This document shows positions 3,062-61,530 of a stretch of 64,000 bases of DNA, one piece after another. A program made the translations under genes and the position numbers. The stretch is from Streptomyces asiaticus (GTDB taxonomy: Bacteria > Actinomycetota > Actinomycetes > Streptomycetales > Streptomycetaceae). Numbering within the stretch: position 1 is the stretch's first letter; each line of letters starts with the position of its first letter. Location of the stretch: NCBI RefSeq assembly GCF_018138715.1, contig NZ_JAGSHX010000006.1:372001-436000 (forward strand). Direction: 5' to 3'. The notes beneath the pieces are model-generated. The model saw only the letters and a list, made by a program, of their open reading frames with translations. It made no database searches and was not told where the DNA came from.

Positions 3062-3133
3062 AGGCTATGGCAGCGGCCACGATCCGAATAACCCCTAGCT
3101 CCGTCCAGGTCGCGCCCCCTAGGCGCCCCCCTA
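3062..3133 (-). promoter_or_regulatory. ccr promoter with three TAGGGG boxes
   Basis: Read on the minus strand, TAGGGG occurs at 3133-3128, 3121-3116 and 3097-3092, all in the direction of ccr. The proximal box is followed after 24 nt by TAGCCT (3067-3062), a plausible -10 hexamer, which places the box over the -35 region. The most distal box overlaps the stop codon of the upstream 2,3-dehydratase gene. The same arrangement recurs at three other promoters of the cluster. The binding protein is inferred, not shown. Confidence 0.65.
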
Positions 3134-4537
3134 TACGGCCAGGGAGTGCAGACAGGCGATGAGCGTGCGCGCCTCGACGTTGACGTAATGGCTGTGGCGG
3201 ATCAGGTCGAGCAGCTGACGCACCGCCATCCAGCGGTAGTGCGGCGGCTCCTCGGGGACGGCGCTCAGCTCCGTCTCCACGACCAGATAGCGGTTGAAGG
3301 CGTGGAAGAAGCGGCCGCCCTCCTCGGAGAGCACGGTGTCGAACCGCACCCGGTCGGCCGGTGCCTCCACCACCTCCTCGAGGAACGGCGGCGTGGCTCC
3401 CTCGGGCAGATGGGTGTAGTTGCGCGGGGTGCACTGCACGGTGGGGGCCAGTTCCACCACGTCCGTGTAGCCGGGTTCGGCGCGGGCCTGCACCAGCACA
3501 TGCGGCACCTTGTCGGCGTAGGCCAGCAGGAAGGCGGCCACGCCCGGTCCATGGGGCTCGATCATGGGCTGGGTCCAGCCGCCCACCTCGCGGCCGCCCG
3601 CCGTCACGTCCACGGCCATCACGCTGAAGAAGCGCCCGCTCTCATGGGAGATGCGGTGGGCGTTGCGGTGCCAGCCGGTGGTCTCCCGCAGCGGTATCCG
3701 CTCGGTGAACACCTCGCGCTCGGTGCGCAGTCCGGTGATCCAGCTGAGGATGTCGGCGTCGCGGTGGAGGACGTGCCGCCCCGGCCGTTCCGGCTCCGCG
3801 GCCCCGGGTGATCCGGCGGCCGGGAAGGTCTCCTCCGGGTCCAGCGGGGAGTGCGGCAGACAGGCCAGGACGCTGCGCGCGTCCATGTTCACCAGGTCCT
3901 CCACGGCCAGCAGATGGTGCAGCTGGCCCAGCGTCAGCCAGCGGAAGCCGTCGCGCACCTCGACGTCCGTCTCCGGCGCCACCTCGACCAGCATGTTGCG
4001 GTTGCGCTTGCGGAAGAACCAGCTGCCCTGCTCCGACTGGCGGACGTCGGCGAGCACCCGGTGCCGTTCCGTCCGCTGGAAGTACTCCAGATACGGCACC
4101 GCCCGGCCCTTGTGCACCCGGGTGTAGTTGCTGCGGGTAGCCTGGACGGTGGGCGACAGCTGGAGTCCGCCGTGGTTGCCGGGCTCCATCTTGGCCTGCA
4201 TCAGGAAGTGCGGTACGCCGTCGAAGTCCTTGACCAGGATGCCCAGGATGCCGATCTCCGGCTGGTGGAGGATCGGCTGGCTCCACTCCTCCACGGGCGC
4301 CCCGGGCATCCGCACCCGGATGCCCTCGACGGTGAAGAACCGGCCGGTCTCGTGGACCAGGTTGTGGGTGTCCGGCGCGAAGTCCCAGCCGCGCATCGCC
4401 TCGAACGGGATGATCTCGATCCGGGACTCGTCGGCGTCGACGCGCTCGCGGAACCAGCGCTGGAAGTCGGCGAGGAGGGTCACCGAGCTGTCGACGGTGG
4501 CGGCGGAGCGGATCAGCCGCTCCTGGAGCGTGCTCAC
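3131..4537 (-). CDS. NDP-hexose 2,3-dehydratase
   Basis: About 468 residues in two homologous halves of roughly 220 residues each, the internal duplication typical of the 2,3-dehydratase family (AveBVI/EvaA type). Related segments appear twice: HNLVHETGRFF and HRISHESGRFF, then LSPTVQATRSNYT and LAPTVQCTPRNYT. It removes the C2 hydroxyl of dTDP-4-keto-6-deoxyglucose, giving a 3,4-diketo intermediate for 2-deoxysugars. Several GTG codons are possible starts. I chose 4537 because GTGA then overlaps the stop of the preceding reductase gene, a coupling pattern seen elsewhere in this cluster; 4540 or 4546 cannot be excluded. It is the third gene of the sugar operon. Confidence 0.93.
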   Translation of the reverse strand: MSTLQERLIRSAATVDSSVTLLADFQRWFRERVDADESRIEIIPFEAMRGWDFAPDTHNLVHETGRFFTVEGIRVRMPGAPVEEWSQPILHQPEIGILGILVKDFDGVPHFLMQAKMEPGNHGGLQLSPTVQATRSNYTRVHKGRAVPYLEYFQRTERHRVLADVRQSEQGSWFFRKRNRNMLVEVAPETDVEVRDGFRWLTLGQLHHLLAVEDLVNMDARSVLACLPHSPLDPEETFPAAGSPGAAEPERPGRHVLHRDADILSWITGLRTEREVFTERIPLRETTGWHRNAHRISHESGRFFSVMAVDVTAGGREVGGWTQPMIEPHGPGVAAFLLAYADKVPHVLVQARAEPGYTDVVELAPTVQCTPRNYTHLPEGATPPFLEEVVEAPADRVRFDTVLSEEGGRFFHAFNRYLVVETELSAVPEEPPHYRWMAVRQLLDLIRHSHYVNVEARTLIACLHSLAV

Positions 4538-5520
4538 CACGCCCACGCCTCAGGCCCGGGGCCGCCGTTGCCGATCGGCGGGAACAGCCGGTCCAGTTCG
4601 GCCAGCGCCTCGTCGGACAGCGTCAGCTCCATGGCCTTGAAGGCCCCGGTCAGCTGGTCCAGGCTGCGCGGCCCGATGACCGGCGCGGTGATGCCGGGGC
4701 GTCCCATCACCCAGGCAAGACCCACCTCGGCCGGGTCGGCGCCGAGGCCGTCGCACAGCTTCTCGTACGCGGCGACGGCGTCCCGGTGGACCTCGAGCGC
4801 CTGGGCGGCCCGGCCCTGGGCGGTCTTCATCGCGGTGCCCTCGGCCAGCTTGCGCAGCGCCCCGCTGAGCAGCCCGCCGTGCAGCGGCGACCAGGCGAGC
4901 ACCCCGACCCCGTACCGCTGGGCGGCGGGGATCAGCTCCAGTTCGATATGGCGGGTGACGAGGTTGTACACGCTCTGCTCGGAGACGATGCCGAGGAAGT
5001 GGCGGCGGGCCGCGGCCTCCTGGGCCTCGGCGATGTGCCAGCCGGCGAAGTTGGACGAGCCGACGTAGCGCACCTTGCCCTGCCGGGTCAGCGTCTCCAT
5101 CGCCTGCCACACCTCGTCCCAGGGGGCGTGGCGGTCGATGTGGTGCATCTGGAACAGGTCGATCCAGTCGGTGCCCATCCGGCGCAGCGAGTCCTCGCAG
5201 GAGGCGATGATGTGCCGGGCGGACAGCCCCGAGTCATTGGGCCAGTCGGTCATCGGGTTGAAGACCTTGGTGCCCAGCACGACCTTCTCGCGCCGGCCGC
5301 CTCCTCCCGCGAACCAGCCGCCGAGGAACTCCTCGGTGTAGCCCTTGTGCTTCTGCCAGCCGTACTGGTTGGCGGTGTCGATGAAGTTGACCCCGTGGTC
5401 CAGGGCGGTGTCCAGGATCGCGTGGCTCTCCTCGTCGCTCGCCCTGACCCCGAGGTTCAGGGTGCCCAGGCACAGTCGGCTCACCTTGAGGGCGGTGCGG
5501 CCGAGATAGGTGTACTGCAT
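4534..5520 (-). CDS. Aldo/keto reductase, probable dTDP-hexose 3-ketoreductase
   Basis: A 328-residue (alpha/beta)8 aldo/keto reductase. The catalytic tetrad is visible: Asp and Tyr in FIDTANQYG, Lys in VVLGTK, and His in FQMHHID. Given its place beside the 2,3-dehydratase, it most likely reduces the C3 ketone of dTDP-3,4-diketo-2,6-dideoxyglucose with NADPH, as AveBVIII-type reductases do. The start ATG at 5520 overlaps the stop of the upstream 4-ketoreductase gene by one base (TGATG), so translation is probably coupled. The regiochemistry is inferred from context, because an AKR alone does not define the sugar position. Confidence 0.88.
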   Translation of the reverse strand: MQYTYLGRTALKVSRLCLGTLNLGVRASDEESHAILDTALDHGVNFIDTANQYGWQKHKGYTEEFLGGWFAGGGGRREKVVLGTKVFNPMTDWPNDSGLSARHIIASCEDSLRRMGTDWIDLFQMHHIDRHAPWDEVWQAMETLTRQGKVRYVGSSNFAGWHIAEAQEAAARRHFLGIVSEQSVYNLVTRHIELELIPAAQRYGVGVLAWSPLHGGLLSGALRKLAEGTAMKTAQGRAAQALEVHRDAVAAYEKLCDGLGADPAEVGLAWVMGRPGITAPVIGPRSLDQLTGAFKAMELTLSDEALAELDRLFPPIGNGGPGPEAWAW

Positions 5521-6485
5521 CAGTGTCCTTCGGTACGGGCCGCCGCGGCAGCCGGTCGGCTGGAGGTGGCGGAGGCGGCCCACAGGTCGTGGAGGGATTC
5601 CTTGAGGGCGACCTTCGGGGACCAGCCCATGAGCCGCCGGGCGAGACGGATGTCGGCCTGGGTCCAGCTGCCGCCCTTGCTGTGCACGGCGCCGCTCTCC
5701 TCGCGCACCAGACGGTCGGGCACCTGGGAGGCGGCGATCAGCAGCCCGGCCAGTTCGCGCATGCTGAAGGCGTCGCCCTGCCCGACGTTGAGCACCCGGC
5801 CGGTCACCGGGCTGCTCGCGGCCAGTACCACGGCCTCGGCGACATCCCGGACGTCGATGAAGTCGCGCCGGTCGTCGACGAGGGTGACGGTGAGCGGTGT
5901 CTCCTCGGTGGTGTGGCGCAGCCGGTGGGCGAGGCCGCCGAGGAAGCTGCCCCGTGGGGTGCCCGGCCCGCAGACGTTGGTGACGCGCAGCACGCAGCCG
6001 TCGATACGGCCCGCGTCCGCGGCGCCCAGGACGATCCGGCTGCCGACGAGCTTGGTGCGGGCGTAGGGGGTGCGGGGGGCGGTGGGGTGGTCCTCGGCGA
6101 TGGCCGTGCCGTCGGGGACGGGGCCGTACTCGTGCACCGAGCCGAGATGGACCAGGCGCGGCCGCCTGGGGAGGGCAGCCACGGCGTCCACCAGCCGGTC
6201 CACGAGCGGGATGTGCGAGGCCGTCATGCTCGCCTCGTCGCCCTCCCAGCTGTCGCCCGCGGCGTTGACGACGAGATCGGCGGACTGTGCGGCCCGGACG
6301 ATGTCCTCGCTCGGCGCGGATACCGCGTCAAGCGCCAGAAATCCGACTCCGGAAATGGGTTCGGCGGGTTTTCTCGCTATTGCCAGGACTTCATATCCGC
6401 GCTTGGTGAGAGCTCTACAGATATGTCGCCCGATGAATCCGGTGCCGCCGATGACAACGGCCTGCCGATCTCGGATGTGGCCCAT
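5520..6485 (-). CDS. NAD(P)-dependent sugar 4-ketoreductase (extended SDR)
   Basis: A 321-residue extended short-chain dehydrogenase of the NAD-dependent epimerase/dehydratase family. The cofactor loop is GGTGFIGRHI and the catalytic pair is Tyr and Lys in YARTK. It probably performs the last step to dTDP-2-deoxy-L-fucose, reducing the C4 ketone (AveBIV/UrdR type). I place the start at the ATG at 6485, preceded by GGTGG. A frame-matched ATG at 6521 lies directly against a TAGGGG box and upstream of the likely -10 element, so it is unlikely to be used. It is the first gene of a three-gene sugar operon. Confidence 0.88.
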   Translation of the reverse strand: MGHIRDRQAVVIGGTGFIGRHICRALTKRGYEVLAIARKPAEPISGVGFLALDAVSAPSEDIVRAAQSADLVVNAAGDSWEGDEASMTASHIPLVDRLVDAVAALPRRPRLVHLGSVHEYGPVPDGTAIAEDHPTAPRTPYARTKLVGSRIVLGAADAGRIDGCVLRVTNVCGPGTPRGSFLGGLAHRLRHTTEETPLTVTLVDDRRDFIDVRDVAEAVVLAASSPVTGRVLNVGQGDAFSMRELAGLLIAASQVPDRLVREESGAVHSKGGSWTQADIRLARRLMGWSPKVALKESLHDLWAASATSSRPAAAAARTEGH

Positions 6486-6491
6486 ATCGCC

Positions 6492-6556
6492 ACCGTATTG
6501 GCGCCGCTTCGAGCGGAACAACCCCTACCCTCGTCCACCCCTATCGGGCACCCCTA
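6492..6556 (-). promoter_or_regulatory. Sugar-operon promoter with three TAGGGG boxes
   Basis: On the minus strand TAGGGG occurs at 6556-6551, 6543-6538 and 6527-6522, each followed by T. The two proximal copies start 16 bp apart. The nearest box is followed after 24 nt by TACGGT (6497-6492), a candidate -10 element just ahead of the 4-ketoreductase start. The spacing is the same as at the ccr, PKS and KAS III promoters to within 1 bp. Confidence 0.7.
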
Positions 6557-6577
6557 TTACGGCCCCGACCTGCGATG

Positions 6578-7240
6578 TCATTCGAATAGATGTCGTTTAT
6601 GGGCCTCGCTGACCGCTGCCGCGCGATCCTTCACCCCGAGTTTCTCGTAGACATGCAGAAGATGCGTCTTGACGGTCGCCTGGCTGATGAACAATGCGGC
6701 CGCGGCCTGCCGATTCGTGGCCCCGTCCGCGATAAGCCTGAGCACTTGGAGTTCACGCTCGCTCAGCGGGCCCTGAGTGGGTTTGCGTACCTGGCCGAGA
6801 ACGCGTCCGGTGACCGCGGGCGAGAGGACGGACTGGCCCGAGGAGGCGGATCGCACGGCGCGGGTCAGCTCCTCGCGCGGGGTGTCCTTGAGGAGGTAGC
6901 CGGTCGCCCCGGCGGCCAGGGCGCCCATGACGTCGCTGTCGGTGTCATAGGTGGTCAGCACCAGGATCCGGGCCTCCGGATCGCCGCGCAGCAGCCGTTT
7001 GATGGCCTCCACGCCACCCATCCGGGGCATGCGCAGGTCCATCAGGACCACGTCGGCCGGCTGCCGTTCGTACAGTTCGACGGCCTCGGCTCCGTCACCG
7101 GCCTCGCCGGTCACCGTGAAGTCGGGGTCCCGCTCCAGCACCCCGCGCAGCCCGTCGCGGACCACCGGGTGGTCGTCGACGATCAGGATACGGATGGGGC
7201 TGGGGCCGGGGGTGTCGCCGCCATGGGTGTTTCCGCTCAT
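6578..7240 (-). CDS. NarL/FixJ-family response regulator
   Basis: A 220-residue protein with an N-terminal receiver domain and a C-terminal LuxR-type helix-turn-helix. The receiver carries the acidic pair in IVDDHPVVRDG and the phospho-acceptor Asp in VLMDLRMP. The HTH reads LSERELQVLRLIADGATNRQ and continues through QATVKTHLLHVYEKLGV. The ATG at 7240 overlaps the stop of the histidine kinase gene by 4 nt (ATGA), which supports this start over longer frames. It closes the ABC exporter-kinase-regulator operon and probably controls that operon in response to the kinase. A 13-bp palindrome at 10230-10242 upstream of the operon is a candidate target. Confidence 0.95.
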   Translation of the reverse strand: MSGNTHGGDTPGPSPIRILIVDDHPVVRDGLRGVLERDPDFTVTGEAGDGAEAVELYERQPADVVLMDLRMPRMGGVEAIKRLLRGDPEARILVLTTYDTDSDVMGALAAGATGYLLKDTPREELTRAVRSASSGQSVLSPAVTGRVLGQVRKPTQGPLSERELQVLRLIADGATNRQAAAALFISQATVKTHLLHVYEKLGVKDRAAAVSEAHKRHLFE

Positions 7241-8499
7241 GCACCGGCTTCCTGGGGGATCACGGGGACGGCCGCGCTGATGGCGGTGCCCTCGCCACGG
7301 GAGCTTTCGATGTCCAACGTACCGGCCACCCGGCCCAGTCGGCGCCGCATCGCCACCAGCCCGAGGCCATGGCCGCCGGAGGTCCCGGCCTCGGCCTCCG
7401 CGGCCGCGGAGTCGAATCCGACGCCGTCGTCGAGCACGTCGAGGACCACCACGTCCTCCATGTACGACAGGGTGACGCCCACCTTGGACGCCCGGGCGTG
7501 CTTGGCGATGTTGGCGAGGGCCTCCTGCGCCACCCGGTAGAGCGTGGCCTCCAGTTCGGCGTGGAGCGGGATGGCGGTCCCGTTCGTCGCGAACGCCACC
7601 TTCGGCTCCCGCTCCGGTGACCACCCCTCGACCAGCGACTCCAGGGCGTCCGGCAGGGTCCGGGACTCCAGTTGCTCGGGGCGGAGCGCCTGGACCGAGC
7701 GGCGCGCCTCGGCGAGGCTGTCCCGGGCCAGGTCCTTGGCGGCGACGAGATGGCGGCGCCACACCTGGCGGTCGCCCTCGGCGTGTTCGGCGGCCTCCAG
7801 CTGCCGGATGATGCCGGCCAGCCCCTGGGCGAGGGTGTCATGGATCTCCCCCGCCATCCGCTGGCGCTCGTCGAGCACTCCGGCCTCGCGCGCCTGGGTG
7901 ATCAGCTGGGCGTGGAGTCCGGCGTTCTCGGTGAGCGCGGAGCGGAGCTCGGCCACGGTGCGTTTGCGCCGCTGATGCTGTTCATTGAGCCTGCTCGACA
8001 GCAGGTTGATCCAGCCGATCACCACGGTCTGGAAGGCGATGGCGGCGAGATAGCCGACCACCGCGCCGGTCGTGGGCCGGGGGAAGCCGTCCGGCACGGT
8101 GTTGACGACGAACGAGGTGGCCGCCACGGACACCAGCGCCCAGACGGTCGGCAGCAGCACCAGCGCCTGGAGGAACCCGGTGGCGGCGAACAGCATGAAC
8201 ACCTGGTCCCGCGCCATCAGCGCGGCGGAGAGGGCGAGCAGCCCGGCGAAGTAGACGGCCGTGCGCACCGTGCCGTACGGCTGTCTGCTGCGGCGGCCCG
8301 TGGGCAGGGTGTAGGTGCCCAGGATCCATCCGGCGGCCACGGCCGCGAGGCCCAGCGTGGTGAGCAGCCGCCGGGCCGGTGGCGGGCCGTGGACCAGGCT
8401 CAGGGCCGTGGACAGAGACAGCAGAAGGTAGGGCAGCCCTCCGAACAGGATGTCGGAGTGCCGCTCCCACCGTCCGCCGTCGTCCTTGGACGCGCTCAC
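7237..8499 (-). CDS. Membrane sensor histidine kinase (NarX/DesK-like)
   Basis: A 420-residue kinase starting at GTG 8499, one base after the permease stop. The first 190 residues hold about five or six hydrophobic segments with short loops and no large extracellular domain. The dimerisation and phospho-acceptor motif follows (ERQRMAGEIHDTLAQG, HisKA_3 type, His in EIHDT). The ATPase domain has NIAKHARA for the N box, DDGVGFD for G1 and GGHGLGL for G2. It would phosphorylate the adjacent response regulator. Because it is co-transcribed with an ABC exporter, it may sense the product or membrane stress; the ligand is unknown. Confidence 0.95.
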   Translation of the reverse strand: MSASKDDGGRWERHSDILFGGLPYLLLSLSTALSLVHGPPPARRLLTTLGLAAVAAGWILGTYTLPTGRRSRQPYGTVRTAVYFAGLLALSAALMARDQVFMLFAATGFLQALVLLPTVWALVSVAATSFVVNTVPDGFPRPTTGAVVGYLAAIAFQTVVIGWINLLSSRLNEQHQRRKRTVAELRSALTENAGLHAQLITQAREAGVLDERQRMAGEIHDTLAQGLAGIIRQLEAAEHAEGDRQVWRRHLVAAKDLARDSLAEARRSVQALRPEQLESRTLPDALESLVEGWSPEREPKVAFATNGTAIPLHAELEATLYRVAQEALANIAKHARASKVGVTLSYMEDVVVLDVLDDGVGFDSAAAEAEAGTSGGHGLGLVAMRRRLGRVAGTLDIESSRGEGTAISAAVPVIPQEAGA

Positions 8500-8500
8500 C

Positions 8501-9238
8501 TCACTCCCAGCGGAACAGCTTGGCCGCGGCCGCGGTGGCCGCCACCGCGATCACTCCGAGGACGGTCAGGTGCAGCGTCTGCGGCCACTGGTTCTCCCAG
8601 GAGTCGCGCAGCGCCTGGAGCGCGGCGCCCAGCGGGGTGTAGTCGCCGATGGTGGACACCGTCTCCGGCAGGTCCTCCTTGGGGAGGAACGCGCCGCCGA
8701 AGAAGAGGCTGGGGAAGAGCAGGGACAGGCCCATCGCGGTGGCCGACTTGCTGCTCGGCGCCACGGCCGCGATCACCAGGCCGATGGAGAACAGCGCCCA
8801 GGTGCCCAGGACGAAGCTCACCAGGAAGGCGGGGACGTCACCGGGCAGTTTGGTGTCGAAGGCGGTCTTGCCGACGATGAGCACCAGCACCGCGGAGACC
8901 GCCGCGGTGACCAGGTTGATGAAGAGCTGGGCGAGCAGCAGGTTCCCCGGGTGGATGGGGCTGGCGGCCATGCGCCGCAGGATGCCCTTCTCCCGGTAGG
9001 TCGCGAGGGTCGTGGGCAGCAGGTTGAGGGCCAGCATCGTCAGACACAGCGACATGGCCATCGCGGGGACGAACGCGGCCATCGACGCCTTGGTGGCGGC
9101 GTCGTCGTCGGACTTGGTGGTGACGAAGTGGAAGATGGCCAGCAGCATGATCGGCAGCGCGATGACGAAGAACACCGCGGTGGGATCGCGCAGGAACAGC
9201 TTGCTCTCGACGTAGGTGAGCTTGGTGCGCCCGGACAT
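8501..9238 (-). CDS. ABC-2 type transporter permease
   Basis: A 245-residue integral membrane protein with six predicted hydrophobic segments, the size and layout of DrrB-like ABC-2 permeases. The conserved cytoplasmic stretch YREKGILRRMAASPIHP precedes the second half of the membrane domain. Start ATG at 9238 follows AGGAG. It lies 22 nt after the ATPase gene and directly before the kinase gene, so the four genes form one operon. It likely forms the membrane channel of an exporter for the macrolide or a related compound. Export of elaiophylin is a contextual inference. Confidence 0.92.
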   Translation of the reverse strand: MSGRTKLTYVESKLFLRDPTAVFFVIALPIMLLAIFHFVTTKSDDDAATKASMAAFVPAMAMSLCLTMLALNLLPTTLATYREKGILRRMAASPIHPGNLLLAQLFINLVTAAVSAVLVLIVGKTAFDTKLPGDVPAFLVSFVLGTWALFSIGLVIAAVAPSSKSATAMGLSLLFPSLFFGGAFLPKEDLPETVSTIGDYTPLGAALQALRDSWENQWPQTLHLTVLGVIAVAATAAAAKLFRWE

Positions 9239-9260
9239 GGCAGAAGTCTCCTCGGCGGCT

Positions 9261-10175: not shown

Positions 10176-10213
10176 CGGCCCGGGTCCTCCTCGCTCGGTT
10201 CCTTCACTCTTCC

Positions 10214-10351: not shown

Positions 10352-10948
10352 TCAGCCGCGCCGGGCGTGCAGCGCCCGGCAAACCTCGTAGGACGGCAGC
10401 AGACCGGCCCGCTCGGCCTCGGCCAGCCCGGGGGCGTTCCGGTCGCGCGCGGAGACCAGGTATTCCAGGTCCTTGGGCCAGGGCAGGCCGAGCGCGGGGT
10501 CGAAGGGGTCGATCTCGTGTTCGGCGCCCGGGTTGTACTCCTCCGAGTTGAGGTAGGCCGCCACCGTGTCGTCCCGCAGCGCGATGAAGGCGTGGCCGAG
10601 GCCCTCCTCCAGATACACCGCCCGGTACGAGACGGGATCGAGACGCACACTGTCCCAGCGGCCGAAGGTGGGCGAGCCCACCCGCAAGTCCACCACCACA
10701 TCGAGGAGTTCGCCGCTGACGCAGGTCACCATCTTGGCCTGGCCCGGGGGTACGTCCGCGTAGTGCACCCCGCGGACGGTGCCTCGCCGGGAGACGCTGT
10801 GGTGGTTCTGGCCCAGGCGCAGCGGATGGCCTACCGCAGCGGAGAAGGCCGATTCGGTGTAGTGGGCGACGAACGCGCCGCGCTCGTCCCGGTGGACGTC
10901 CGGGCTGAACTCGTAGGCGCCGGACACCGCCAGCTCGCGCACCTTCAT
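10352..10948 (-). CDS. dTDP-4-keto-6-deoxyhexose 5-epimerase (RmlC family)
   Basis: A 198-residue cupin of the RmlC family. The conserved segment [17 protein letters not shown] contains the general-base His, and further conserved positions lie in [13 protein letters not shown] and in [10 protein letters not shown]. In a 2-deoxy-L-fucose pathway it inverts C5 (5-epimerase), converting the D-series intermediate to the L-series. Some relatives act at both C3 and C5, and the sequence alone does not settle this. The ATG at 10948 overlaps the stop of the glycosyltransferase gene by 4 nt (ATGA). It is the last gene of the PKS operon. Confidence 0.9.
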
Positions 10949-12198
10949 CGGCCGTGCTCCACGGTGAGCTTCTCCAGCACCGGCACCACCTCGTGCGGGG
11001 TGGGGGTGCGCAGGTTCTCCTCGCGCAGCCGCTCGGCGGTCTCCTTGTACGACGCGTCCTTCAGCAGCCGCTCGACGCTCTCCCGCAGCACCTCGGCGGT
11101 CAACTCCGAGGCGTGGACGACGAGTCCGGCACCGGCCTCGTGCAGAGTGGTCCCCTTGTTCCACCAGTCGGCGTAGCGGATGGTGGGGATGAACTGCGGT
11201 ACGCCGCTCGCCAGTGCGGTGCCCCAGGAGCCGAATCCGCCGTGGTGGATGAGGACCGAGGCGCCGGGCAGCAGGGCGTGCAGCGGAACGAAGTCGACGA
11301 TGCGGGTGTTGGCGGGGACCTTCGCCAGCGCCTCGACCTCCTCGGGCGGCAGCGCGGCCACCACGTCGATGTCCATGCCCCCCAGGGTGTCGATCATGTC
11401 GGCCACCGGCATGAAGGTGCCGCCGAGGGCGGCCCGCGCCGAGACCCCGGAGGTCAGCACGACCCGCGGCCGCTCGGGGGCCTCGCGCAGCCAGTCCGGG
11501 ATGTCGGAGGGGCCGTTGTAGGGCAGATAGCGGACCGGGACCCGCTGGACCGGCAGCGGGAGCTGGAGGCTGGTGGGGATCTGGTCGATGGTCCACTGGC
11601 CGACCACGACCTCCTCGTCGAAGGTGCGGTCGTAGCGGGCGAGAATGCCACCGAGCCAGTCGGCCATCGGGTCCTCGCGGCGCTCCTCGGGCTGTTCGGC
11701 GAGGCGGGCCAGGAACACCTCGCGCATCTTCGCGTAGATGTCGATGCACCACAGCAGCCGGGCGTGGGCGGCGCCCACCACCCGGGCGGCCACCGGGCCC
11801 GCGTAGGTGACCGGGTCCCAGATGACCAGGTCGGGCTGGAAGTGGCGGGCGTAGTCCACCAGCTCGTGCACCATGCAGTCGTTGTAGGTCTGGTACGCGA
11901 ACATCACGCTGATCTTGAACTTCATCAGCACCTGTTCCCAGGAGTGCTGATCGAGCTCCGGGGTCGACCAGTCGGAGAGCGGGTTCTCCAGCGACTCGCG
12001 GTTCTGCGTCAGCATCTCGTGGAGATTGTGGTCCTTGCCGACCGAGACGGCCGTCAGACCGGTGTTCTTGATGGACTCGGTCAGCGCGGGGTTGCTGGCG
12101 ACATGCACCTCGTGGCCGGCCGCGGCCAGCGACCAGGCGAGCGGGACCATGGTGAACAGGTGCGATTTCTCGGACACCGTCGCGAAAAGGATGCGCAT
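10945..12198 (-). CDS. Macrolide glycosyltransferase (GT1 family)
   Basis: A 417-residue GT-B enzyme like EryCIII/DesVII. The N-terminal domain starts [15 protein letters not shown] with the usual acceptor-side pattern. The nucleotide-sugar site is in [20 protein letters not shown], the His-Gly-Gly signature of antibiotic glycosyltransferases. It would move 2-deoxy-L-fucose from dTDP to the C13 hydroxyl. Elaiophylin carries two identical sugars and only one such gene is present, so it presumably acts twice on the symmetric aglycone. No P450-like activator gene (DesVIII/EryCII type) lies next to it. It sits 14 nt after the type II thioesterase gene. Confidence 0.93.
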
Positions 12199-12212: not shown

Positions 12213-12998
12213 TCAGTCGATGGGTCGTCGGGTGCGGGCGGTGGCCGCCCGCAGGGTGTCCGTGATGACTCCGGCCACCGCTGCCTTCTGCTCACCCAGG
12301 TAGAAGTGGCCGCCGGAGAAGACCTCCAGCCGGAAGGAGCCCGAGGTGTGCTCCCGCCAGCCCGCCACCTCCGGGGCGGTGACGCGGATGTCGCTGTCAC
12401 CGGTGAGCCCCACGATGTCGCAGGTCAGCCGGGCGCCGGGCCGGTATTCGTAGGTCTCGGCCGCCTTGTAGTCGCTGCGGATGGCGGGCAGGGCCAGCCG
12501 CAGCAGTTCGGTGTCGCCGAGGATCCGGGAGTCGGTTCCGCTGACCAGCCGGAGCTCGGCGATGAGCCCGGCGTCGTCGCGCCGGTGGATGCCCAGGCTC
12601 CGGTGGTGTGAGGGCGCGGGCCGGCCCGAGGCGAAGAGCGCCACGGGCACGGTCCCCAGCTCCCCTTCGAGCAGCCTGGCCAGCTCGAACCCGACGCTCG
12701 CGCCCATGCTGTGGCCGAACAGCGCGATCGGCCGGTGTGCCGTGAGCGGCTTCAGCGCCTGGTAGATCTCGCGCGCCATCGCGTGGATGTCCTCGATGGG
12801 CGCGTCATGGCGGCGGTCCTGCCGCCCCGGGTACTGGACGGCCAGTGCCTCCACGGTCGGCGGCAGCAGCTCGGAGATCGGGAAGTAGAAGCTGGCGGCT
12901 CCTCCCGCGTGCGGCAGGCAGACCAGGCTGACCTCGGCCTCCGGGCGCGGATGGAACCTGCGGAACCACAGGCTCTCATCGGTGACGGGCAACGCCAT
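12213..12998 (-). CDS. Type II (editing) thioesterase
   Basis: A 261-residue alpha/beta-hydrolase. The nucleophile motif is GHSMGA and the catalytic His is in GGHFYL; the oxyanion region reads [12 protein letters not shown]. All are typical of discrete TE II proteins. These enzymes hydrolyse aberrant acyl groups from carrier proteins and restore stalled synthases. ATG at 12998 follows AAAGGAA. It is co-transcribed between PKS5 and the glycosyltransferase, as expected for a PKS proof-reading enzyme. Confidence 0.95.
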
Positions 12999-53050: not shown

Positions 53051-53118
53051 ACGGTATGGGGCGGGAGTCGGCTCAACCACCCCTAACCGCATCCACCCCT
53101 AACCCTTGGCGTAGGGGT
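53051..53118 (-). promoter_or_regulatory. PKS-operon promoter with TAGGGG boxes and inverted copy
   Basis: On the minus strand TAGGGG lies at 53101-53096 and 53085-53080, 16 bp apart. The proximal box is followed after 23 nt by TACCGT (53056-53051), a candidate -10. A third copy at 53112-53117 points the other way, making ACCCCTA-N10-TAGGGGT (53095-53118), a 7-bp inverted repeat just past the stop of the 4,6-dehydratase gene. That repeat could also help end the upstream transcript. Confidence 0.7.
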
Positions 53119-54981: not shown

Positions 54982-55034
54982 GCGGCCAGAAGCTATCAAC
55001 GCGGCCGGCCCGCGCTCCAGGTCTGTCGCGGCGA

Positions 55035-55070: not shown

Positions 55071-55090
55071 GGCCGCGTGTGGCCACCCCT
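55065..55090 (-). terminator. Hairpin after the LAL regulator gene
   Basis: A perfect 10-bp inverted repeat, AGGGGTGGCC and GGCCACCCCT, around a 6-nt loop. It begins 27 nt past the stop codon of the LAL gene on the minus strand. There is no U-tract. One arm contains a CAGGGGT copy, so the site may combine termination with regulation. Confidence 0.6.
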
Positions 55091-55116
55091 TCCGCGGGAC
55101 ATCGCCCCGTCTTCGC

Positions 55117-57993
55117 TCAGGCGATTTCGTCCACCTGGGCCCGGAGCGCGGTCGGCAGCTGCTGCCGGCTCCTGATATTCAGCTTGCGGTACACCCGCGT
55201 CAAATGCTGTTCCACCGTGCTGATGGTGATGAACAGGCTGGCGGCTATTTCCCGGTTCGTATAACCGTCCACCGCCAGGGCGGCCACCCGGGCCTCGGAT
55301 TCGCTGAGCTTGGTGCCCAGGGACGGCGGCACCGCCGGTTTCGGGCCGAGCGGTCCGGACACCGGCCGCACCACCGGCCGTGGATCGCGGGCCTCCAGAC
55401 CGGAGTCGAGACGGATCCGGGCGCACAGCTCCTCGGCGCCGCACTCCTTGGCCATCCGCCAGGCCCGGCCCATGATGGCGTCGGCCCGCCCCAGCTCCCC
55501 GGATCCGCGCAGCGTACGTCCCAGATCGTCCAGCGCCCGGGCCAGCTCCAGGCGGTCGCCGGAGCACTGGAGCTCCTCGACGGCCTGGCCGAGCAGCCGG
55601 GACCGGTTCTCGATGTCGCCCGCCGCGGCCAGTAACCGCAGGGAGACGCCACGGACCCGGGAGTCCCCGGCGCCGTTCCTGGCCAGCTGTTCGGAGACCA
55701 GGTTGGCGGCCTTCTCCCGGTCGCCGAGCTCCAGCCATGCCTCGGCGGCGTCCGACCGCCAGGGCAGCAGCGCCGGCTGGTCGAGCTCCCACAGCTGGGC
55801 GAGCCGGCCGGCCATGAGGAATTCGCCGAGCGCGGCGTTGATGCGGTTGGTGGCCAGGTAGTAGCGGCCGCGGGCGCGGGTGTAGCCCAGTCCGTAAATG
55901 CTCTTGAACAGCGCCTCGGGGACCGGACGGCTCAGATGCCGCGCCGCCGCGTCATGCTTGCCCATCTCCGTGTACGCCAGGATCTGGCTGGCCAGGGGGC
56001 CGCCGATGAAGACGCTTCCGTCGCGGCCCGGCACGATCTCCAGGGCGGTGGTCGCATAGGCCGCCGACTCCACGAGATTGCCCTGCCGCAGGGCGATTTC
56101 GGCGCGGATCGAGGCGAAGATGGCCCGCCAGCCCGGCGCCCGGCGCCGCTCGGCCTCCTCCATCAGCGCGTCGCACCACGGCGCCGCCTTGTCCGGGCGG
56201 CCCGCGTACACCAGCGCGTTCACCGAATTGACGATGGGCTCGAAGGTGGCGTCGGTGAGCGGCGAGACATCGAGCACCTTCTCCGCCGCGGCCACCGGCG
56301 ACTCCTCGCTCCCCCCGCGGCCGAAGAAGCCGCTGAACGCCGCCGTGATCGTCGACAGCGCGGAGGGTCTGCGGGATCTGAGCTGCGCACGGAGGGCGCC
56401 GCCGTCCTCGCCCTGGCGCGCCGTGGCCCCGGGGGCCCGGTCCTGCGCACCGGACTCCTGGGCCCAGCGGGTGGTCAGCCGGAACTGGGACATCGAGGTG
56501 GGTCCCGCGTTGCTCATCACGGCGTTGAGCCGGCCGATGGCACCGCGCGCCTCCTCGATCCGGCCGTGGGCGAGCAACAGCTCGATCAGCCGCCCGATAT
56601 GGGAGGCGGGCAGCCGGTCGGCGTACAGCGCGGCCAGCGGCTCCTCCAGCATCCGCTCGGACGCCGAGGGGTTGAGCCGCCACATGATCCCGGCGGTGCC
56701 GATCCTGATGCCGGCCCGCAGCTCCTCGTCCGCGCAGGCCGCGTACGCCAGCTCCAGGCAGGCCACCGCCAGCTTGGCGTCGTCCTCGGCGAGCGCCTGC
56801 TGCGCGGCGTCCCGCAGCAGCGGCACCGCCCAGGGCTCGTCCGCGGCCTGGGCGGCGAGCAGATGGCGGGCCACGGCGAGGGTCCCCCCGCCGCCCTGGT
56901 GCAGCAGAACGGCGGCGCGCCGGTTCATGTCCAGCCGGACCTCGGGGTCCATGTCCTCCAGCACCGCGGCCTCGACATACGGGTGACGGAAGGCGAGACC
57001 GTCGACGAGGCCCGCCGCGTCCAGCGCGGCGACTCCGCGGCGGGTTCCGGCGGGGCCGATGCGCAGCAGCCGGCCGAGGAGTTCGAGGGAGGCGGACGCC
57101 CCGAGCACCGCGATGCCCTCGGCCAGCCGGGAGACGGTGCGCCCACTGCGGTAGACGCAGGTGAGCACGGCCTGCACAAACATGTCGCCCACCACGGGCT
57201 CCACTGCGCGGCTGCGCCGTGGGGGCGCCCCCGCGGTGCGGTAATCGTCAATCACCGCGCGTAACAACAACGGATTACCGCCGCTCACCTCATACCAGGT
57301 GTAGGCCACATCGGTGGAATCCGGAAGTCCCAGACGGGTGGTGAGCAGATGTGCCGTCTCGTCCCAGGACAGCCGTTCCAGCCGCAGCCGCTGGAAATTG
57401 GGCTGGCGCAGCAGTTCGGTATTGAAGACCGCGTCTTGTCGTTCGCTGTCCGTCGCCTGTGCGAACACCATGAGGAGTTTGGCGGAGCGCGAACGGGTCG
57501 CCAGGTACAGCAGGTACTGAAGTGACGCCGCGTCGACGAGCTGGAGTTCGTCGACGCAGATCACCACCGGTTCGCGGGAGGCGAGTTCATGGAGTGCGGC
57601 ACGGAACTCCCGGGCTCCCTGGACATGGCTGGGGTTCGTGCCGACGGGGTCGCCACCTGGGGTTTCCCGGGGCGGTGCGGCGTCGAGGGCGCCGTGGTCG
57701 AGCGCCCGGCGCAGATGGTCGGCGGTCGCCCTGGGCAGCCGGGGCGAGTCCAGGAGCTGGCGCAGTGTGCCGAGCGGGGCCCGGTCGGCCGAGGTTCCGT
57801 ATGCCTTGAGGACGAGGGCTCCGGCCTTCGCCGCATGGGCCGTGACGGCTTCGAGCGTATGGGTCTTGCCACAACCGACCGCGCCCTCGACGAGCACGAT
57901 ACCCGCCTCCCCGGACAGGCATCTGGAAAATGCCCGCCGAAGTCTCTCGAATTGCGCGTCGAATTGTCTGGCTCTGGCCGATGAAAACACCAT
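55117..57993 (-). CDS. LAL-family LuxR transcriptional activator
   Basis: 958 residues from ATG 57993 (GGGGG 9 nt upstream; a TTG at 58002 is in frame). The N-terminal ATPase has Walker A GAVGCGKT near 37-44 and Walker B VVICVDELQLVD near 143-154. A long helical middle follows, then a C-terminal LuxR helix-turn-helix (LSESEARVAALAVDGYTNRE continuing to ISTVEQHLTRVYRKLNI). This is the size and plan of large ATP-binding LuxR activators found in many macrolide clusters. Codons 244 (57262-57264) and 787 (55633-55635) are TTA, the rare leucine codon read by the bldA tRNA. It is the only pathway-type activator in the window and the best candidate to bind the TAGGGG boxes. Confidence 0.95.
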   Translation of the reverse strand: MVFSSARARQFDAQFERLRRAFSRCLSGEAGIVLVEGAVGCGKTHTLEAVTAHAAKAGALVLKAYGTSADRAPLGTLRQLLDSPRLPRATADHLRRALDHGALDAAPPRETPGGDPVGTNPSHVQGAREFRAALHELASREPVVICVDELQLVDAASLQYLLYLATRSRSAKLLMVFAQATDSERQDAVFNTELLRQPNFQRLRLERLSWDETAHLLTTRLGLPDSTDVAYTWYEVSGGNPLLLRAVIDDYRTAGAPPRRSRAVEPVVGDMFVQAVLTCVYRSGRTVSRLAEGIAVLGASASLELLGRLLRIGPAGTRRGVAALDAAGLVDGLAFRHPYVEAAVLEDMDPEVRLDMNRRAAVLLHQGGGGTLAVARHLLAAQAADEPWAVPLLRDAAQQALAEDDAKLAVACLELAYAACADEELRAGIRIGTAGIMWRLNPSASERMLEEPLAALYADRLPASHIGRLIELLLAHGRIEEARGAIGRLNAVMSNAGPTSMSQFRLTTRWAQESGAQDRAPGATARQGEDGGALRAQLRSRRPSALSTITAAFSGFFGRGGSEESPVAAAEKVLDVSPLTDATFEPIVNSVNALVYAGRPDKAAPWCDALMEEAERRRAPGWRAIFASIRAEIALRQGNLVESAAYATTALEIVPGRDGSVFIGGPLASQILAYTEMGKHDAAARHLSRPVPEALFKSIYGLGYTRARGRYYLATNRINAALGEFLMAGRLAQLWELDQPALLPWRSDAAEAWLELGDREKAANLVSEQLARNGAGDSRVRGVSLRLLAAAGDIENRSRLLGQAVEELQCSGDRLELARALDDLGRTLRGSGELGRADAIMGRAWRMAKECGAEELCARIRLDSGLEARDPRPVVRPVSGPLGPKPAVPPSLGTKLSESEARVAALAVDGYTNREIAASLFITISTVEQHLTRVYRKLNIRSRQQLPTALRAQVDEIA

Positions 57994-58549
57994 TGCTCGC
58001 AACCCCCGAATGCGACGCGAAGCACTGCTACGGCAGTCCGAACGCCTCCCAGCAAGCTATACACCTACCGGTCACGCCACCATCGCCGCACGTAAAATCA
58101 TCGTTAACGAATTACCAATTCTGAGCGGACTGCCCGACGATCGACAAAAGCGATGCGAGTGAGACACCCCCACCTGGGGCAACACGTGGCAGCCGAAGCG
58201 CACCGACACCCTGACAACCTGCGCCACCCCCGTTCACGTGGGCATTTGTTCGGAACGGCCAGCATACACGAGACCCCCTAGCCGCACCCGGGAAAGCTCT
58301 CGACATCCTTGACTCCGACACGAAGTGGTCATACACAGAGGGTTTCGAGGATCCGTTTCGAACATTTATTTGCCCGTTTTGATCGCCAATGCGGTTCTTA
58401 TGTCTGTTGCCACTGGTAACCGCAAGTGATTCGCCGGGAATTCTCATGCCATAAAGCGGACAGAGGGTGGGCACGCCTATTCCCGCGCCGATGAATTCCG
58501 GAGCCACACACCTCGCCGTTGGACTGTTCCCATGGCATCTGACCCGCCG
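57994..58549. other. Intergenic region upstream of the LAL gene
   Basis: 556 bp without a credible gene, lower in GC than its surroundings. On the minus strand it holds one CTAGGGG (58281-58275) followed after 8 nt by TATGCT, a possible promoter with a leader of about 270 nt. Nearer the gene are a GAATT-ACC-AATTC inverted repeat (58109-58121) and GTTAAC (58103-58108). On the plus strand TTGACT (58309-58314), 17 nt and TACACA resemble a promoter, but no plus-strand gene follows. Confidence 0.5.
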
Positions 58550-60268
58550 CTATCGCTCGTGGAGATGCAGCCCCCTCCCGCCCTTGCGGCCCAGGTGGCC
58601 CGCCTCGACCAGGCGCCGGAGATGGCGTGCCGGGGTCAGGGCCGGGTCCCGGAAGGTGCCGTGCAGAGTGCGCTGGATGGCGAGCGAGACATCCAGACCG
58701 ATCACATCCAGCAACCGCAGCGGGCCCATCGGATAGCCCTGCCCGGCCGCCATCACCGTGTCGATGTCAGCGGCGGTGGCCCAGCCCTCCTCGAGCATCG
58801 CCACCGCGCTGTTCAGATAGGGGAAGAGCAGGGCGTTGACGATGAAACCGGCCCGGTCGGGGCAGTCCACCGCACGCTTGCCGAGCGCCGCGGCCACCGC
58901 GTGCGCCGTGCCGAGCGCCTCCTTGGAGGTCAGCACGGTGTGCACCACCTCGACCAGCCGCATCACCGGGGCGGGGTTGAAGAAGTGCATCCCGATGACG
59001 TCCTCGGGCCGCCGCGTCGCCATCGCGCACTCGATGACGGGCAGGCTGGAGGTGGAGGTGGCGAGCACCGCGCCCGGTGCGCACACCCGGTCCAGATCGG
59101 CGAAGACGGCCCGCTTGACGTCGATGTCCTCCGCCACGGCCTCCACCACCAGATCGCAGGCGCCGAGGGCCTGGAGTTCACATCCCGCGGCCAGTCTGCC
59201 CATCGCCTCGGTGAGCAGCTCGGGCGCCAGCTTGCCGCGCCGCACCCCACGCTCCAGCGAGCGCTCCACGGCGGCCGTGGCCTCTTTAGCCCGCATTTCG
59301 CTCCGGGCCACCAGCACCGTCGGATAGCCGGAGCGCGCGCACACCTCGGCGATCCCGACGGCCATCGTGCCCGAGCCCACCACCCCGATCCGCCGTACCG
59401 CACGGGCCGGTACGGGCTCGCCCAGGCCGTCCGTCTCCCCGCCCCGCGCCGCGCCGCCCGCGCCGTACTCGTAGAAGCCGCGGCCCGTCTTCACCCCGAG
59501 CAGACCGGCGGTCACCATATGGGCCAGGGTGGGCGCGGGCGCGTACCGCGGATCGCCGGTGCGCTCGTACAGCGCCTCCAGGGAGTCCCGCGCGGTGTCC
59601 AGACCCATGGCGTCCAGCTGGGCCAGCGGCCCCATCGGCAGTCCGCAGCCGAGGGTCATGGCGGTGTCGATGCTGTCGCGCGAGGCGTAGCGCCGCTCGT
59701 ACATGGCCACCGCGTTGTTGAGGTACGCCATGGTCAGCGCGCCCCCGACGAAGCCCGGCCGGTCGGGCACCCGCACCGGGATCCGACCCAGGTCGCGTAT
59801 GAGTTCCCGGACGTCGGCCAGGACCGCGTCCGCGGTGAGCGGGGTGCCCACCACCTCCACCGCCGGCTGCTCGCGGTCGGGGCCCAGCGGGAAGAGGTGC
59901 AGCCCCACCGTGCGGTCGGTCCGCCCGGAGCCGACGGCGATCTCGGTCACCGGGAGGCCGGTGGTCGTGGTGGCGAACACCGTCTCCGGCGGGCAGTCGG
60001 CGTGGGCGCGGGCGAGCAGCCCGAGCTTGGTCTCCAGCCGTTCGGGGACCGCCTCGACCACCAGATCGGCCCGCGCGGCGGCCGCCGGGTCGGTGGTGAA
60101 CTCGACGGCGGATCCCGGCGCGGCCACCTCCGCCCGGCCGCGCCGCAGGGCCGGTTCGTCCCGCTCCACGGCGATCACCCGCCGGCCGCCGCGGACCAGG
60201 GCGTCCACGAGGTGGCGGCCGGTGGTGCCGAGCCCGAACACCGCGACGGTGGGGAAGCGCTGTGCCAT
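58550..60268 (-). CDS. Two-domain 3-hydroxybutyryl-CoA dehydrogenase
   Basis: 572 residues from ATG 60268 (AAAGGA 9 nt upstream). It consists of two consecutive 3-hydroxyacyl-CoA dehydrogenase units of about 285 residues, each with its own Rossmann loop (GLGTTG near 10 and GSGTMA in the second half). The C-terminal unit has the full catalytic set: Ser in TSTSSLP, His in GMHFFNP, Glu in RLVEVV, Asn in FIVNALL. In the N-terminal unit the His is kept, but the Asn position is Gly (FVGGALT) and the Ser is Thr. It probably reduces acetoacetyl-CoA to 3-hydroxybutyryl-CoA on the way to crotonyl- and ethylmalonyl-CoA. It follows the KAS III gene by 38 nt. Confidence 0.92.
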   Translation of the reverse strand: MAQRFPTVAVFGLGTTGRHLVDALVRGGRRVIAVERDEPALRRGRAEVAAPGSAVEFTTDPAAAARADLVVEAVPERLETKLGLLARAHADCPPETVFATTTTGLPVTEIAVGSGRTDRTVGLHLFPLGPDREQPAVEVVGTPLTADAVLADVRELIRDLGRIPVRVPDRPGFVGGALTMAYLNNAVAMYERRYASRDSIDTAMTLGCGLPMGPLAQLDAMGLDTARDSLEALYERTGDPRYAPAPTLAHMVTAGLLGVKTGRGFYEYGAGGAARGGETDGLGEPVPARAVRRIGVVGSGTMAVGIAEVCARSGYPTVLVARSEMRAKEATAAVERSLERGVRRGKLAPELLTEAMGRLAAGCELQALGACDLVVEAVAEDIDVKRAVFADLDRVCAPGAVLATSTSSLPVIECAMATRRPEDVIGMHFFNPAPVMRLVEVVHTVLTSKEALGTAHAVAAALGKRAVDCPDRAGFIVNALLFPYLNSAVAMLEEGWATAADIDTVMAAGQGYPMGPLRLLDVIGLDVSLAIQRTLHGTFRDPALTPARHLRRLVEAGHLGRKGGRGLHLHER

Positions 60269-60306
60269 GCCGATGAGTCCTTTCGCTGGCTGGGGCCTTG
60301 GGTTGG

Positions 60307-61341
60307 TCATGGACCGCGGTGGCCGTCCTGCCATGTGAGCAGCGCGGCGCCGAGCGACATCCCGCCGCCGAATCCGGCCAGCAGCAGCAACTCCCCGTCG
60401 CCGAACACGCCCTGCCGCCGGGCGTCGTCGAGCGCCAGCGGGATGGAGGCGGCGCTGGTGTTGCCGTGCTCGGCCACCGTCAGATGAGTGCGCGCCCGCG
60501 GCAGTCCGAGCTCCGGAAGCGCATTGGCCAGCAGCACACCATTGGCCTGATGGGGGATGAAGTGGTCCACGCTCGCGGGGTCCGTGCGGTGCGCGGCCAA
60601 CAGGCGCCTGATCGCGCGCGGCAGCTCGGCCAGGACGTATTCGCTGACCGCGCGGCCCCGCATCCGGAAGAAGTGGCCCCCGTCGGCGAGGGTCTTCTCC
60701 GACGCCGGGGCGCGGCTGCCGCCCGCCGTCACCTCGATCAGGTCATGGAGCGCGCCGTCGCTGGTGAGCAGCGATCCACTGAGGCCGTAGCCGGGACGCA
60801 CGGGTCCGAGCACCACCGCCCCGGCCCCGTCGCCGAAGAGCACGGCGGTCCGCCGATCGGTGCGGTCGATGATGCGGGAGTAGACGTCGGCGCCGATCAC
60901 CAGGGCGTACCGGGCGCCGGACCCGGCGGACAGCAGCCCCGCCGCCGTCACCAGGGCGAAGACAAAGCCGCTGCACACCGCGTTGAGGTCGAAGGCGGCG
61001 GCGCCGGTCGCGCCGATCCGGTGCTGCACCAGACAGGCGGTGGCGGGCTGGGGTTGATCGGGAGTCGAGGTGGCCACCACGATCCAGCCGAGCTGATCGG
61101 CCCCGATCCCGGCGTCCGCGAGGGCGGCGCGGGCGGCCGCCACGGCCAGATCGGAGGTGGCCTCGTGGTCGGCGGCGTAACGGCGGCGGTGGATCCCGGT
61201 CTTCGCCGAGATCCAGTCCGGGGTCACCCCCGCGCGCTCGGCCACCAGCTCGTTGGACACGGTCTCGGCGGGCAGATACGAGCCGGTGCCGAGGATCCCG
61301 ATGGGCCGCCCGCCGGAGGTCCGGACCGGCTGCCCGGTCAT
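60307..61341 (-). CDS. Beta-ketoacyl-ACP synthase III-like enzyme
   Basis: 344 residues, FabH-like. The triad is visible: Cys in DLNAVCSGFVFAL, His in FIPHQANG, and Asn in EHGNTSAASIP. The C-terminal GFGGGMSLGA glycine loop is present. Because the PKS makes its own acetyl starter with KSQ, this enzyme is unlikely to prime the synthase. Being co-transcribed with a 3-hydroxybutyryl-CoA dehydrogenase, it more likely condenses acetyl-CoA with malonyl-CoA or malonyl-ACP to an acetoacetyl thioester for ethylmalonyl-CoA supply. The operon is driven by a TAGGGG-box promoter. Confidence 0.92.
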   Translation of the reverse strand: MTGQPVRTSGGRPIGILGTGSYLPAETVSNELVAERAGVTPDWISAKTGIHRRRYAADHEATSDLAVAAARAALADAGIGADQLGWIVVATSTPDQPQPATACLVQHRIGATGAAAFDLNAVCSGFVFALVTAAGLLSAGSGARYALVIGADVYSRIIDRTDRRTAVLFGDGAGAVVLGPVRPGYGLSGSLLTSDGALHDLIEVTAGGSRAPASEKTLADGGHFFRMRGRAVSEYVLAELPRAIRRLLAAHRTDPASVDHFIPHQANGVLLANALPELGLPRARTHLTVAEHGNTSAASIPLALDDARRQGVFGDGELLLLAGFGGGMSLGAALLTWQDGHRGP

Positions 61342-61470
61342 CTGGGTCTCCCGGCCGGCGCGGCCACCGCCGCCGTCGCCGGTGCCATCGCTGTCGTCGC
61401 TGTGCGCGGGGTGCGGCGGTGCTCGAGAAGAAGCATTGGGTGGTTCCCTCCGGATCCATGCCGGGCATTG

Positions 61471-61530
61471 ACGCTACGGACCGGGCACGGCACCGATAAC
61501 CCCTAACCCATCACCCCCCTAGGCCCCCTA
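61471..61530 (-). promoter_or_regulatory. KAS III-operon promoter with three TAGGGG boxes
   Basis: On the minus strand TAGGGG lies at 61530-61525, 61521-61516 and 61505-61500. The two proximal copies are 16 bp apart, as at the sugar and PKS promoters. The nearest is followed after 23 nt by TAGCGT (61476-61471), a candidate -10. It lies in the 296-bp divergent region between KAS III and the membrane-protein gene at 61638. The leader to the KAS III start is about 125 nt. Confidence 0.7.

Follow-up and report, generated by a model that had tools for sequence, protein, structure and literature searches.

Which protein reads the TAGGGG boxes repeated before four operons of a polyketide gene cluster, and how might it switch these operons on together? 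The question is raised by a 64,000-nucleotide stretch of the Streptomyces asiaticus genome (NCBI RefSeq assembly GCF_018138715.1, contig NZ_JAGSHX010000006.1, positions 372,001 to 436,000), hereafter called the window, whose own first letter is position 1. The boxes stand upstream of ccr (crotonyl-CoA carboxylase/reductase), a deoxysugar operon, a polyketide synthase (PKS) operon, and a KAS III operon of what looks like an elaiophylin (ela) cluster, and the same cluster encodes a PikD-type LAL protein (large ATP-binding regulator of the LuxR family). Taken together, the results make it very probable that TAGGGGT is the operator (the 'LAL box') of PikD-type LAL activators and that it is used in a class II, MalT-like manner. 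The box sequence, its spacing, its conservation, its enrichment beside LAL genes, and the recognition helix common to the LALs were computed directly, and from these we infer binding, transcription starts, contact with RNA polymerase, and activation.

Box arrangement at the four promoters

Two or three direct copies of TAGGGG were found on the minus strand at each of the four promoters, and the positions given in the original prediction proved correct base for base. At the ccr promoter, the proximal, middle, and distal copies (3092–3097, 3116–3121, and 3128–3133, respectively) precede the predicted −10 hexamer TAGCCT (3062–3067). The corresponding copies of the sugar operon lie at 6522–6527, 6538–6543, and 6551–6556, before TACGGT (6492–6497), and those of the KAS III promoter at 61500–61505, 61516–61521, and 61525–61530, before TAGCGT (61471–61476). 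The PKS promoter has a proximal and a distal direct copy (53080–53085 and 53096–53101) before TACCGT (53051–53056). The gaps between the proximal box and the −10 hexamer were 24, 24, 23, and 23 nt for the ccr, sugar, PKS, and KAS III promoters, respectively, as had been claimed, and the next copy lies 16 bp further out at the sugar, PKS, and KAS III promoters and 24 bp further out at ccr. The proximal sites read TAGGGGTT at three promoters and TAGGGGTG at the PKS promoter, and the box therefore abuts the position expected for a −35 hexamer, 17–18 nt before the −10. Counted from −10 elements that are themselves predicted from sequence, the proximal box would span −41/−42 to −36/−37.

A count of 16 TAGGGG copies on the two strands of the window is ordinary, as shuffled sequences contained 12.98 ± 3.61 copies and 22 of 100 reached 16. 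What is unusual is the arrangement of the copies, 11 of which are grouped on the same strand in the four short promoter stretches. Same-strand neighbors at most 24 nt apart occurred 7 times, against a mean of 0.03 and a maximum of 1 in 200 first-order Markov resamples, and TAGGGG followed by TANNNT after 23 or 24 nt occurred 4 times (mean 0.035 and maximum 1 in the resamples). No comparable arrangement was seen at the remaining four copies (6064 and 58818 on the plus strand, 58275 on the minus strand, and 55035 on the plus strand).

The proximal box and the −10 are strongly conserved. We aligned the PKS and KAS III promoters of 10 sequences, namely the window, the orthologous regions of eight named species (listed below), and locus L108, and found the proximal TTAGGGGT and the −10 invariant in 10/10 sequences at both promoters. 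The last two boxes of L108 are 15 instead of 16 bp apart in both promoters, and the gap at the PKS promoter is 24 instead of 23 nt in L108 and L009, still within the 23–24 nt range. In three further genomes (G164, G055, and G069), about 48 kb separate the 16-bp pair of the sugar promoter from the LAL orthologue, a distance like that in the window; in G149, the pair and the LAL orthologue are on separate contigs.

Two further features of these promoters were observed. An inverted TAGGGG copy (53112–53117, plus strand), kept in 10/10 aligned sequences, faces the direct pair of the PKS promoter (CCACCCCTA ... TTAGGGGTGG) and could be an opposed LAL site. In the sugar operon, an in-frame ATG at 6485 (minus strand) coincides with the putative transcription start (6485–6497 region), and a leaderless mRNA is possible.

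Enrichment beside LAL genes of other genomes

From other Streptomyces genomes we collected 60 loci of 14–20 kb that surround genes for PikD-type LALs and were chosen by E-value and contig size before any motif was counted. Two control sets were used: 40 arbitrarily placed stretches of 20 kb from 30 of these genomes, some of which were sampled twice, and 20 loci around type I PKS genes (KAsynt_C_assoc matches) in 14 genomes without a LAL match. The LAL survey scored no more than four candidates per genome (the best ones), and genomes counted as lacking a LAL may therefore hold some; when the control loci themselves were checked, one arbitrary stretch (L168) contained a 28% LAL-like match and 0/20 PKS loci contained any. 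Genes were called with a home-made caller based on GC content at third codon positions (GC3). Collapsing the LALs at 60% identity gave 43 groups, and one of the 60 loci (L108) is an ela orthologue at 86%. In the search toward other genera, 23 of the 27 matching genomes lay outside the genus of the window.

TAGGGG ranked first among intergenic hexamers, with 160 copies in 222 kb of LAL loci versus 36 copies in 180 kb of arbitrary stretches (p = 6.7e-15). It again ranked first when same-strand intergenic pairs at most 40 nt apart were counted (25/60 LAL loci versus 0/40 arbitrary loci), and TAGGGGT led the ranking of single 7-mers. Nearly half of the TAGGGG copies in the LAL loci (127/267) stood within 400 nt upstream of a called gene on the same strand, versus 11/96 in the controls. 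Over whole loci, pairs at 9–24 nt were found in 29/60 LAL, 0/40 arbitrary, and 1/20 PKS-without-LAL loci, and the box followed by TANNNT after 23/24 nt in 16/60, 0/40, and 0/20, respectively. Counted by group, 23/43 had a pair (Fisher's test, 5.2e-9 versus arbitrary and 1.3e-4 versus PKS loci) and 13/43 had the box with TANNNT at 23/24 nt (3.4e-6 versus both control sets); without L108, these counts were 22/42 and 12/42, the latter with 15 sites. The original prediction had named equal frequency of the motif in unrelated intergenic DNA as an outcome that would speak against it, and neither the arbitrary nor the PKS controls showed such a frequency. The prediction needs one amendment here: the box is not private to the cluster, as it also occurs at PikD-type LAL genes elsewhere, including others in the same genome.

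AATTCA and GAATTC ranked third and fourth among the hexamers enriched in intergenic DNA of the LAL loci (L069–L128) and were not concentrated before LAL genes (10 matches in 8/43 groups).

Spacing, following base, and period of the boxes

TANNNT was counted at each offset from 0 to 60 downstream of all TAGGGG copies in the 43 groups. Offsets of 23, 24, and 34 stood out with 8, 9, and 9 occurrences, respectively, against a mean of 0.57 for the other offsets. The Poisson probability for offsets 23 and 24 combined was 8.6e-15, and the controls had 0, 0, and 0 occurrences at the three offsets (126 sites). The 23–24 nt distance was thus recovered from independent LAL clusters without being assumed. 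Offset 34 corresponds to one additional helical turn; for three of the nine sites there, the box is the distal member of a pair (twice in L099, once in L126). In the reverse direction, TAGGGG ranked first among hexamers located 23/24 nt before any TANNNT (17 versus 0.19 expected; 0 versus 0.14 in the controls). The base after the box, on which no selection had been made, was T in 15/15 box-23/24-TANNNT promoters outside the ela orthologues and in 64/170 other TAGGGG sites of the same loci; for the proximal position, TAGGGGT is therefore the more accurate form of the operator.

The 16-bp period cannot be extended in this way. The 43 other LAL groups hold 38 pairs, of which 23 have periods of 9–13, 7 have periods of 20–22, and none has a period of 16; the period was rejected as a rule for the family. 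TAGGGG-N10-TAGGGG was present in 38/199 genomes of the genus, and the reversed control was commoner across these 199 genomes (for example, in the first 20, 14 with the control and 5 with the pair). A 16-bp period characterizes the window cluster and its orthologues.

In three related LAL clusters (L081, L083, and L086), we spotted by eye a triple-box variant in which TAGGGG-N4-TAGGGG is followed by GTTTGAAGGGG; L081 and L086 have CAGGCT at the expected −10 position.

The LAL protein and its recognition helix

The LAL gene of the window (55117–58002, minus strand) encodes a protein of 961 aa with an AAA_16 domain at residues 15–179 and a GerE domain at residues 898–949, which fits the PikD-type architecture (~900–1000 aa). 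Against the MalT equivalog model, it scored 25.3 bits (cut-off 537) over the helix-turn-helix (HTH) region only, and is not a full-length match. Its C-terminal LuxR-type HTH carries the helix STVEQHLTRVYRKL. Among the 75-residue C-termini of 63 LALs, 62 contained TVEQHLT, and the single exception (L095) was cut such that its 75 residues begin inside the helix. Six genes for PikD-type LALs scored above 300 bits in the 11.88-Mb genome, and the five proteins other than that of the window all carry STVEQHLT. One helix reading one box would be a simple account of an operator common to unrelated clusters.

The 550-nt region upstream of the LAL gene (58003–58552) contains long conserved blocks, for example around AATTCGTTAACG, and a single TAGGGG that was lost in 4/13 sequences. 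Autoregulation of the LAL gene through this box is therefore unsupported, and the gene is probably driven by another regulator.

Other LAL loci of the same genome

TAGGGG-N10-TAGGGG occurs three times in the genome, always at window promoters, as often as its reversed control (also 3). Of the 13 pairs with spacers of 1–30 nt outside the window, 8 have, by our own arithmetic, a PikD-type LAL gene other than that of the window no more than 10 kb away. Four of these eight sit in a geldanamycin-type cluster that contains genes for a cytochrome P450, a dehydroquinate-synthase-like protein, two LALs, a TetR-type protein, and 3-hydroxyacyl- and acyl-CoA dehydrogenases, and the boxes there precede the P450 gene, the second LAL gene, and a gdmH-like gene. 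According to a review (PMC6784220), one geldanamycin strain requires one of its LALs for the other to be transcribed and has its P450 gene under LAL control, while post-PKS genes are unaffected in another strain. The box positions fit the former strain, with some uncertainty in matching the gel and gdm numbering. Five pairs lie more than 10 kb from all six LAL genes, and one of them (3159625) adjoins a PKS gene and has TAGCCT 24 nt after the box.

Evidence against and alternative explanations

Several results weigh against an operator common to the LALs. Genome-wide, TAGGGG pairs with spacers of 1–30 nt were rarer than those of the reversed control (20 versus 77). As the control was as common or commoner, the significance of the boxes rests on their location and not on genome-wide counts. 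No pair was present within about 10 kb in 20/43 LAL groups, and no exact box-23/24-TANNNT in 30/43 (first members). In the ranking of 7-mer pairs, TAGGGGT was only third (6 versus 0 loci, p = 0.042), and in the reverse scan some AT-rich hexamers also scored in the controls (best 5 versus 0.04, p = 6.7e-10), which means that the p-values of that scan are inflated. At the LAL loci of the same genome (L029–L032, L034, and L036), TANNNT stood at 23/24 nt after 2/27 TAGGGG sites, at 22 nt after one further site, and at 35 nt after two; the geldanamycin-type P450 and LAL promoters had no TANNNT at 23/24 nt after their boxes, and the pair at C6:8936991 is oriented away from its LAL gene. The loss of the box upstream of the LAL gene itself in 4/13 sequences points the same way. 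A LAL of this type, RapH, is reportedly directed to a different site, GTWC-N8-GTAC, on which nothing is built here. This motif had three exact matches in the window, all within long frames, and one match with one mismatch (58028–58043) ends 25 nt before the LAL start; such one-mismatch matches exceeded chance (88 versus 29.5 expected), perhaps because of codon usage. Finally, a 7-nt inverted repeat was predicted as the site of FkbN (PMC6022917), and palindromic sites are described for the LAL SCO6993 in passages of PMC9628970.

Among other explanations, the one that survives best is still unlikely: a separately encoded regulator, a PimM-like PAS-LuxR protein or another LuxR protein, would bind TAGGGG, and the LAL gene would be a mere neighbor. 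PimM likewise has a LuxR-type HTH and binds polyketide promoters in the −35 region, and its half-site CTVGGGA resembles TAGGGG in sharing TVGGG (PMC9774167); moreover, co-regulation of elaiophylin is reported for RapH, which belongs to another cluster (PMC10652019). However, PimM differs from the window LAL in having a PAS domain in place of an ATPase domain, and its site is the 16-bp palindrome CTVGGGAWWTCCCBAG, whereas the window has direct repeats. An exact match to this palindrome was found neither in the window nor in the 23 box-positive loci (scanned on one strand, as the motif equals its reverse complement). In addition, PKS loci without a LAL gene had a pair in only 1/20 cases and the box with TANNNT at 23/24 nt in 0/20, and the sampled loci have the LAL helix in common.

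It is very unlikely that the boxes are bound by the NarL-type response regulator of the cluster (C-terminal part of the 6578–7762 frame), which is encoded beside the sugar operon and also has a LuxR-type HTH. Its recognition helix differs (ATVKTHLLHVYEKL), homologues (tblastn matches over 150 aa) were found in 3/23 box-positive and 0/20 box-negative LAL groups, and its presumed operon (10250–6578) has no TAGGGG upstream. The fixed distance to a −10-like hexamer would also suit a −35 element of an alternative sigma factor, without any activator site. The usual −35/−10 spacing is 16–19 nt, which the observed 23–24 nt exceeds; a sigma element would not be expected to recur as two or three direct repeats of varying phase, and the arrangement tracks LAL loci. 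This explanation was rejected as hardly credible. Equally improbable is chance combined with base composition, in which TAG words, rare in coding DNA, gather in intergenic DNA and make pairs look special; the ordinary total count in the window and the genome-wide pair counts agree with it, but it is contradicted by the peak in the offsets, the T that was not selected for, the conservation, and both the matched intergenic and the PKS controls, unless these controls and the LAL loci have a bias in common.

Genes and identity of the cluster

The genes given with coordinates here are on the minus strand. The ccr gene (1678–3018) was assigned by TIGR01751 above its cut-off. The deoxysugar genes (3131–6521), assumed to form one operon, include an NDP-hexose 2,3-dehydratase gene (3131–4546), a frame without annotation (4534–5583), and an epimerase-type gene (5520–6521). 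Downstream of the PKS promoter, the region 10945–52986, assumed to form one transcript, holds long frames that we take, with the original prediction, as type I PKS genes, by their length, the type II thioesterase, and the cluster type, together with the genes for the type II thioesterase (12213–12998) and an activator-dependent glycosyltransferase (10945–12198). The KAS III operon (58550–61341) comprises the KAS III gene (60307–61341) and a gene for a 3-hydroxybutyryl-CoA dehydrogenase-like protein (58550–60334), both assigned to C4 precursor supply; the families of the latter matched in two stretches of the one frame, as if by tandem duplication. The cluster also encodes a histidine kinase/response regulator pair and an ATP-binding cassette (ABC) exporter.

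Orthologues of the LAL gene with 94–98% identity were present in eight Streptomyces species (S. iranensis, S. rugosispiralis, S. sabulosicollis, S. violaceusniger, S. antioxidans, S. niphimycinicus, S. endocoffeicus, and S. samsunensis), among which S. iranensis carries a pta/elaiophylin cluster (PMC10652019). The elaiophylin cluster is described as having one LuxR-family and two two-component regulators (PMC5500506), and the window agrees with the gene set described there in containing these regulators, putative PKS genes, a type II thioesterase, a glycosyltransferase, a 2,3-dehydratase, and an exporter. On gene content, we read the cluster as probably that for elaiophylin/pteridic acid in a strain of the Streptomyces violaceusniger clade.

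A documented regulator of the elaiophylin cluster is GdmRIII, a TetR protein with a site in elaF (PMC5500506). It differs from the LAL in protein family and from TAGGGG in its site (ATNGAGGAC). In a gdmRIII mutant, the transcripts of elaE (PKS), elaF (thioesterase), elaG (glycosyltransferase), and elaO (2,3-dehydratase) rise together and that of the exporter gene elaI falls slightly (PMC5500506). The boxes precede the PKS and sugar operons and not the exporter operon, and the mutant expression agrees in outline with this distribution if elaI corresponds to the boxless exporter; as GdmRIII binds elaF directly, this agreement is consistent with control through the boxes and does not prove it.

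Comparison with known regulators and proposed mechanism

The closest mechanistic parallel is MalT (of E. coli/Klebsiella and of Actinoplanes), a LAL-type activator whose G-rich hexamer boxes overlap the −35 region, as predicted for the window box, and for which direct-repeat sites have been described, as at the window promoters (PMC7567727, PMC9628970). In Actinoplanes, the distance from the end of the MalT motif to the transcription start is 34.4 ± 1.0 nt, and the motif overlaps the −35 (PMC7567727); the predicted 3′ end of the box here (−36/−37) is close to this. Two differences were noted: the core of the MalT box is GGA[T/G]GA and not TAGGGG(T), and Actinoplanes MalT uses an inverted pair, whereas the window promoters use direct copies. 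The window LAL agrees in architecture, in its location within a polyketide cluster, and in its predicted role with the cluster-situated regulators PikD, MilR, AveR, GdmRI/GdmRII, FkbN, and RapH. PikD acts on the pikAI-AIII and desI-V operons (PMC5015266), and the sites of GdmRI and GdmRII were still to be found in 2019 according to passages of PMC6784220. In the open PubMed Central (PMC) literature, covered as listings and as passages of the papers cited here, no LAL operator with TAGGGG was found. Within this coverage, the mechanism appears to be of a known kind (class II, MalT-like), and the operator and its use across the family appear new.

We propose that the LAL protein binds the two or three direct copies before the ccr, deoxysugar, PKS, and KAS III operons. 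Because the proximal copy adjoins the −35, the bound HTH could contact region 4 of the RNA polymerase sigma factor, and the protein would open promoters that have a TANNNT −10 and a poor −35, which is class II activation as by MalT. The fixed distance from the −10 expected of a class II site was found, as a gap of 23–24 nt to predicted −10 elements, at 4/4 window promoters and as a peak in the other LAL clusters. The distal copies, which vary in helical phase, may add affinity or cooperativity through LAL oligomers by loading further protomers. In this manner, C4 precursor supply (KAS III, 3-hydroxybutyryl-CoA dehydrogenase, and ccr), deoxysugar synthesis, and polyketide synthesis would be switched together. 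The original prediction of an activator box over the −35, probably read by the LAL and uniting these genes in one regulon, agrees with the enrichment at LAL loci and the recurrence of the 23–24 nt distance.

Beyond this cluster, it seems rather likely that TAGGGGT is one operator common to PikD-type LALs across unrelated polyketide clusters. Cross-activation within one cell would then be the default, and specificity would come from the number and phase of the boxes, the ATP or ligand state, or the protein level. If so, LALs regarded as pathway-specific and present in one cell (those of the elaiophylin, geldanamycin-type, and other clusters) would use one and the same helix to read the same DNA word, which would explain cross-talk such as the reported effect of RapH on elaiophylin. 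A common box at a fixed promoter position would also allow targets outside the cluster to be found and LAL-responsive promoters to be built, and LAL regulons and switches for silent clusters would become predictable from sequence alone.

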